DNA from: Chloroflexota bacterium | GTDB taxonomy: Bacteria > Chloroflexota > UBA11872 > VXOZ01 | Reading direction: 5' to 3' | Length of the DNA: 64,000 bases | NCBI GenBank assembly: GCA_026710945.1 | Contig: JAPOQA010000046.1 | Coordinates: 1 to 64,000, forward strand | Part shown: positions 2,316 through 28,462 of the stretch, one piece after another | How the letters are laid out: each line of letters starts with the position of its first letter | How positions within the stretch are numbered: position 1 is the stretch's first letter | Position numbers and translations under genes: made by a program | Notes under the pieces: model-generated | Told to the model about the DNA's origin: nothing | Databases searched by the model: none | The model's input: only the letters and a program-made list of their open reading frames with translations

Positions 2316-2354
2316 CAAAAGGAGCGCCCGGTGCTCGTGCACCGTAAGCGCTCC
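2316..2354 (-). terminator. Intrinsic terminator of the small RNA
   Basis: On the minus strand GGAGCGC pairs with GCGCTCC, enclosing a second GGTGC/GCACC stem with an ACGA loop, and the structure is followed by TTTTGTT. This is a textbook rho-independent layout and ends the unit that starts near 2455. Confidence 0.7.
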
Positions 2355-2385
2355 TTCAAATTCCTTAGGCCGCTCCGTGGTCTCG

Positions 2386-2433
2386 TTACCGAGACCTGAC
2401 GGAGGCGGCCCTGGATTTACAACTTACATCCAT
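2386..2433 (-). CDS. Possible 15-residue peptide inside the small RNA
   Basis: ATG at 2433 reads MDVSCKSRAASVRSR and stops with TAA at 2386-2388. The AGGAGG motif (2442-2447 on the opposite strand) lies 8 nt upstream and is unusually strong, with AAGGAGGTGAT matching the anti-Shine-Dalgarno almost end to end. An in-frame ATG six bases earlier would be too close to that site. The second half of the ORF forms one arm of the 2368-2410 hairpin, so translation and folding would exclude each other. No homologue is recognised. Confidence 0.4.
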   Translation of the reverse strand: MDVSCKSRAASVRSR

Positions 2434-2461
2434 GGGCATCACCTCCTTTCTCTTGTGAATT

Positions 2462-2491
2462 ATCATACAATACCGGCGGGCGCGCTGTCTA
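2462..2491 (-). promoter_or_regulatory. Promoter of the small RNA unit
   Basis: Read on the minus strand: TAGACA (2491-2486), an 18-bp spacer and TATGAT (2467-2462) within TATGATAAT. Transcription would begin near 2455, just before the ribosome site. Confidence 0.55.
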
Positions 2492-28408: not shown

Positions 28409-28462
28409 GTCCCGGATGAGTGGCGAGGGCGAAGCGGCGTCTTACGGTATTGAACAGGTGTT

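Follow-up and report, generated by a model that had tools for sequence, protein, structure and literature searches.

In leader-peptide attenuators of the trp and erm types, the translation state of a short ORF picks between alternative hairpins. The RNA unit described here lies in a window of Chloroflexota DNA (the whole stretch that was analysed, 64,000 nucleotides); unlike such attenuators, it ends in a terminator of its own, and its neighbours are unrelated from lineage to lineage. Of the mechanisms worked out so far, the nearest is that of the aapA3 type I toxin mRNA of Helicobacter pylori, for which the accessible part of the report describes mutually exclusive hairpins hiding the Shine-Dalgarno (SD) sequence, supported by covariation, with one anti-SD sitting within the ORF as in the window unit (PMC6733600). 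aapA3 differs in being a toxin, in its antisense antitoxin and in its 5'-3' long-distance lock, and a stop codon placed in a hairpin loop, as in the window unit, is not described in that part of the report (PMC6733600).

Among cyanobacteria, yfr6 (Downstream-peptide RNA) of marine members is about 250 nt long and carries a short ORF (PMC2864571). The sRNA ncl0160, first found in Synechocystis 6803 and conserved in 83 of 89 cyanobacterial genomes, is described in the accessible part of its report as having a terminator, an RBS and a conserved, likely translated peptide of 23-25 aa, with ATG or GTG as start codon and all three stop codons (TAA, TAG and TGA) in use (PMC4734099). Rfam scans of the window unit and its relatives at gathering and permissive thresholds gave no relevant family above threshold, and none, Downstream-peptide included, reached gathering score on the cyanobacterial and Chloroflexota unit loci. 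The only relevant family with even weak similarity to the window unit was CC2171 (RF01867), at 13.6 bits and E = 0.83 against a gathering cut-off of 75, the match being mainly to the SD stretch.

Layout of the unit in the window

The unit spans positions 2491 to 2316 on the minus strand, would give an RNA of about 140 nt and is present as a single copy in its 3.5 Mb genome. A preliminary description of this DNA had placed on this strand a -35/-10 pair, an SD complement, a 15-codon ORF and a stop codon within a hairpin, and each of these was located (Table 1). The promoter has 10 of 12 consensus matches and was the sole hit of the promoter scan within 2.5 kb. The extended SD AGAAAGGAGGTGAT is complementary to what we take to be the conserved 3' end of bacterial 16S rRNA (AUCACCUCCUUUCU). 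In the hairpin, referred to as P2, the 5' arm is within the ORF, the stop codon in the loop and the 3' arm past the stop. Both the hairpin and its GTAA loop, the TAA of which is the ORF stop, are present as had been claimed, with 19 predicted pairs in place of the 18 counted before. The terminator, called classic, is real, its stem and T-tract being kept in congeners, but its stem is bulged; for this reason the simple terminator scanner was silent on 2357-2318, and the call comes from the fold. Folding of the 145-nt RNA gave -70.6 kcal/mol (z = -6.6), and none of 200 shuffles was equally stable. A feature absent from the preliminary description is that the ORF arm of the hairpin also complements the SD/start region. 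The resulting duplex, P1, was computed at -21.0 kcal/mol for the window unit.

Table 1. Features of the RNA unit in the window
Feature	Position	Strand	Basis or details
Sigma70-type promoter TAGACA-18-TATGAT	2462..2491	minus	consensus promoter scan; hexamer regions kept in 6/6 genus members
Extended SD AGAAAGGAGGTGAT	2438..2451	minus	read from sequence
15-codon ORF MDVSCKSRAASVRSR	2386..2433 (stop TAA 2388-2386)	minus	sequence; frame kept family-wide
P1 (putative closed state)	2401..2446	minus	SD/start strand 2446-2428 with ORF strand 2416-2401; loop GTAAGTTGTAA 2427-2417
Switching arm GGGCCGCCTCC, common to P1 and P2	2401..2411	minus	
P2 (putative open state), the hairpin of the preliminary description	2367..2411	minus	fold and family covariation
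Intrinsic terminator	2316..2357	minus	bulged stem 2357-2318, then T-rich TTTTGTTA; stem kept in 6 congeners (fold)

All five congeneric species carry the unit, at 89-91% identity. Conserved within the genus are the promoter hexamers, the SD, the ORF, both hairpins and the T-tract, and the spacers vary. The P2 loop is CTAA in one congener (G001), while in another (G003, locus L012) a one-base insertion changes GGTAAC to GGTTACC, by which the hairpin is retained, the stop is abolished and the frame becomes 43 codons long. The GNRA cap noted earlier is correct for the window unit and is ruled out as a functional motif, since the loop varies even inside the genus. Because the stop of G003 is gone, placement of the stop in the loop is frequent without being a fixed rule, or else the G003 assembly is wrong at this site. 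The stop in the P2 loop is also lost in unit L030, where 21 codons are read; in these two units the hairpin is retained or altered.

The downstream neighbour in the window is a convergent doc gene: positions 1648-2261 of the plus strand hold an antitoxin-like ORF that overlaps a Fic/Doc gene (PF02661). Antitoxin- or doc-like sequence also flanks the unit in several congeners. Clustering of the genes within 5 kb of the units detected no neighbour shared across Chloroflexota lineages. The earlier observation that no gene follows which the unit could lead was thus borne out, and a conserved downstream target gene, or an attenuator, was rejected for Chloroflexota. The suggested leader peptide detached from its operon, taken as a degenerate remnant, is not supported; the unit is an old, usually single-copy gene, independently kept in several phyla. 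No opposing sigma70-like promoter was found at the unit in the consensus scan. In cyanobacteria, genes that we take, by sequence recognition and not by database search, to encode a PCD protein and an SLH porin often follow the unit, and presumably psbD sometimes precedes it (within 5 kb). Elsewhere in the window, the near-palindrome GTAGGGGCACGATATATCGTGCCCCTAC is repeated at 28451, 44206, 44563 and 44913.

Distribution of the relatives

Of 301 Chloroflexota genomes, 44 matched the SD 18-mer AAGGAGGTGATGCCCATG with at most one mismatch; the reversed control gave no match. Nearly all loci read from this search were units of the window's kind. L014, from a distant Chloroflexota family, is a short match that shares the layout with a different sequence; L016 and L017 match the pattern and were rejected as members on reading. 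The exact 18-mer was found in at least 117 stretches of the named genome collection, mostly Chloroflexota and Cyanobacteria plus one Bdellovibrionales. The matches listed included Chloroflexus, Oscillochloris, Chloroploca, Herpetosiphonaceae, Thermomicrobiales and Ardenticatenaceae for Chloroflexota, and Nostoc, Fischerella, Planktothrix, Leptolyngbya and others for Cyanobacteria. Matches in Firmicutes, Desulfobacterota, Acidobacteriota, Alphaproteobacteria and Synergistota were set aside, being ordinary SDs before longer ORFs or lacking P1. In Paenibacillus (L051) and Lachnospiraceae (L054), the same 18-mer is followed by a hydrophobic peptide of 24-27 aa and a hairpin; these loci are type I toxin-like and without P1.

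A covariance model, R1, was built from 40 units and used with a cut-off of E <= 0.01 for Chloroflexota. The RNA was detected in 61 of 301 Chloroflexota genomes, with one match each except for one genome with a second, weak match; those of the weak-scoring matches that were inspected were mostly genuine-looking, L230 being doubtful. Cyanobacterial genomes were positive in 52 of 146 cases, and the layout was seen in about 70 cyanobacterial loci. Within the phylum of Bdellovibrionales, 5 of 59 genomes gave matches, and L242, L243, L244 and L235 show the layout when inspected. Matches at 22-29 bits need such inspection, because ordinary SDs of unrelated phyla also score in this range. The covariance-model search for relatives with covarying stems, proposed in the preliminary description, was strongly positive, with P2 covarying in Chloroflexota and in cyanobacteria, and origin as a REP or MITE copy, the alternative it had raised in the case of REP, is ruled out by the single copy per genome. 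The window unit belongs to a broad, previously unassembled RNA family. The SD core AAGGAGGTGATG is kept, with variation, in the relatives found by R1, and its invariance is in part a matter of ascertainment, because a fixed SD 18-mer served to seed the families.

In cyanobacteria the RNA has a length of about 250 nt, with a conserved 3' domain and a terminator. Its ORF follows AAGGAGGTGATGCCC-ATG and typically encodes 23-24 aa (MIESSKRMGHQVAVSRLCAGAVL and variants), and TAA, TAG and TGA stops were all seen. An ORF of 23-25 aa behind an RBS, its start, its stop usage and its wide occurrence all fit ncl0160 as far as the accessible description goes, and the cyanobacterial units are very probably ncl0160, matched by description and not by sequence. 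The earlier statement that no described family was recognised holds for Rfam and very probably fails for these members. Chloroflexota units differ from ncl0160, so far as its report was available, in being about 140 nt long, in their local P2 and in another peptide C-terminus, and the main text of that report, in its accessible part, mentions neither a P1/P2 switch nor non-cyanobacterial relatives (PMC4734099). R1 scored the cyanobacterial loci at E values of 1e-4 to 6e-8 per genome, much of the score coming from the shared SD, with a different P2 topology.

In the CC2171 loci (L258-L297) of Alphaproteobacteria, GAAAGGAGGTGATCC or a close match to it is immediately followed by the start codon, which opens an ORF of 14-35 codons, both in 33 of the 33 loci read. 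Codon 2 of this ORF is Ser in 32 of the 33, through all four UCN codons. CC2171 is like the window unit in its full SD complement, start codon, short ORF and terminator; it differs in that the score is far below gathering and only part of its members show P1 clearly. Because R1 does not find CC2171 convincingly (17.8 bits at best), the likeness is one of layout only and should be taken as an analogy.

Competing helices at the start codon

The ORF arm in most Chloroflexota units reads 5'-GGG(C/U)(A/G)U(C/U)(A/G)CC, and complements both the SD with the start codon (P1) and the arm after the stop (P2). As one arm serves both helices, P1 and P2 are mutually exclusive, and both pairings were found to be retained. 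For P2 of 40 Chloroflexota units, 91.8% of cells are paired, compared with 35-55% when the arms are slid, and seven pairs carry double changes, with 38 double-change cells and 0/500 in shuffles; these, like the P1 counts below, are raw counts in which kinship is ignored. For P1, 91.9% are paired in register and 26-50% when slid. Double changes could hardly appear in P1, because the search pattern fixed its SD side. Changes in the arm mostly keep the pairing with the SD, being A to G opposite U and C to U opposite G, as in arm columns 70 (A/G opposite U), 69 and 72 (both C/U opposite G), each in 40 of 40 units. The window genus is off this register, and a two-base bulge retains an 11-pair SD duplex (GGAGGUG/CGCCUCC plus GCCC/GGGC). 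The motif AGUNGUAA after the start codon, in the P1 loop, recurs in Chloroflexota and cyanobacterial units among L001-L162; its form AGTTGTAAA was found in the window, L095 and L128.

The energy of the SD:arm duplex was low in all 53 pattern-found units (mean z = -3.3, each below -1.8), against a z close to 0 for 16 control sites that carry this 18-mer. In relatives found by R1 with an altered SD flank, P1 is kept by compensation: GGTGATGCCCGGAA/TTCCGGGCGTCACC, GATGCCT/AGGCATC, GATGCTA/TAGCATC, CGAAATG/CATTTCG and GTGCAG/CTGCAC, as well as GCCCTTA/TAAGGGC in a Bdellovibrionota member. In silico, the expected number of SD:arm pairs was 12.4 when the RNA stops at the end of the ORF; it fell to 6.7 once the 3' arm was included and was 11.6 with that arm shuffled, and the drop on adding the 3' arm exceeded 2 in 48 of 52 units. 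The effect in the window unit is modest (12.9 to 9.6, in silico). Addition of the 3' arm lifts the mean probability that the SD region is unpaired only from 0.19 to 0.31; this value shifts less than the SD:arm pairs because other pairings compete.

In cyanobacteria P2 is long-range: the arm GGGTCATCAGGTTGCA pairs with TGCAACCTGAAGACCC, and a second helix joins CTG..CCGG with CCGGCAG. Among 28 units, 95.7% of P2 cells are paired, with 44 double-change cells and 0/500 in shuffles (kinship ignored). Cyanobacterial P1 is short (CCCATG/CATGGG and neighbours) and 89% paired, with a mean z of -1.2; covariation was looked for in this helix and none was found, its pairs being invariant or changed on one side. 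Because P1 is there invariant or one-sided, and energetically weak, the closed state is no more than plausible for cyanobacteria; for Chloroflexota it has good support. As judged from these comparisons, gating by a bistable fold appears well supported, the comparative support being good for Chloroflexota and lesser for cyanobacteria.

Reading frame and candidate functions

The distance from AUG to the arm in Chloroflexota is 17, 20 or 23, and 28 or 31 in one clade; that from the arm to the stop is 22, 25 or 28, and 23 in the clade with 28/31. Upstream of the stop, the spacing steps within each group are thus multiples of three, whereas the distance from the stop to the 3' arm takes all residues modulo three. 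We argue that the ORF is read, because the frame is kept as far as the stop and not beyond it. Some 15-25 nt separate the arm from the stop that follows, and the 3' arm of P2 comes mostly 9-14 nt after this stop; by the generally known size of the ribosome footprint, both would be near the borders of a ribosome in the act of terminating. SD, arms and frame are kept from phylum to phylum, unlike the peptide sequence, the middle of which is dictated by the switching arm. Codon-position entropy of the cyanobacterial ORF (0.52, 0.55 and 0.59) did not separate peptide from RNA constraint.

These sequence comparisons suggest that the unit is probably a self-contained mini-mRNA, with its own promoter, one short ORF and its own terminator, the translation of which is gated by the bistable fold. 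During transcription, the ORF arm would first pair with the SD and start codon behind it (P1, closed); after the 3' arm emerges, the ORF arm could switch to it (P2), and the SD would be freed (open). A ribosome reading the 15 codons would open P2 and end at the stop in its loop, where its footprint, by the spacing, would hold the P2 arms apart. Translation would be self-limiting, because this footprint leaves the ORF arm free to re-form P1 behind the ribosome. The purpose is likely to be translation in a small and strictly gated amount, either of the peptide or as ribosome engagement.

The divergence of the peptide between phyla, with SD, arms and frame retained, would also fit a ribosome decoy or sensor, in which the SD of 11-14 nt captures 30S, P1/P2 tunes the capture and the peptide is a by-product. 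The complement to the 16S 3' end is indeed longer than usual SDs, but the strength of the SD may be no more than competition with P1 demands, and a pure 30S trap needs neither the frame nor the stop that are preserved; we consider this function unlikely. A trans-acting base-pairing sRNA, with ORF and SD incidental or only self-regulatory, is quite improbable: the RNA is short, structured, terminator-ended and single-copy, and AGUNGUAA recurs in the P1 loop of both phyla, yet the constraint is on SD, start, frame and arms and not on a single-stranded seed, and ncl0160 is called likely translated in the accessible part of the published analysis (PMC4734099). A type I toxin mRNA with SD-sequestering folds is very unlikely, even though the anti-SD in the ORF, the exclusive SD hairpins and the compensatory changes are mechanics shared with aapA3 as far as the available description goes, and a Doc/antitoxin pair adjoins the unit. 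MDVSCKSRAASVRSR and the Chloroflexota relatives are hydrophilic by inspection and not membrane-spanning, genomes of several phyla usually carry a single copy of the unit, and the scan gave no opposing promoter. A remnant leader or attenuator, or a REP/MITE copy resembling the unit by chance, agrees with the lack of a downstream gene and the other repeats in the window but is scarcely credible for a single-copy unit present in all congeners and having covarying relatives in three phyla.

If the mini-mRNA reading is carried further, it is tentatively possible that the Chloroflexota units, ncl0160, the Bdellovibrionota units and CC2171 form one ancient class of mini-mRNA reporting the state of the translation machinery. 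Such an RNA, usually single-copy and with an extra-long SD, would be closed without ribosome engagement and reset by each terminating ribosome, and its output would act on ribosomes and not on a neighbouring gene. An RNA that at least two deep phyla keep, as a rule once per genome, and that has competing folds at its own start suggests a shared function unnamed in databases. Through the family, an orphan sRNA of cyanobacteria, which is very probably ncl0160, is connected with Chloroflexota, and attention is drawn to the similar layout of the orphan Rfam family CC2171; the R1 covariance model can be reused for surveys.
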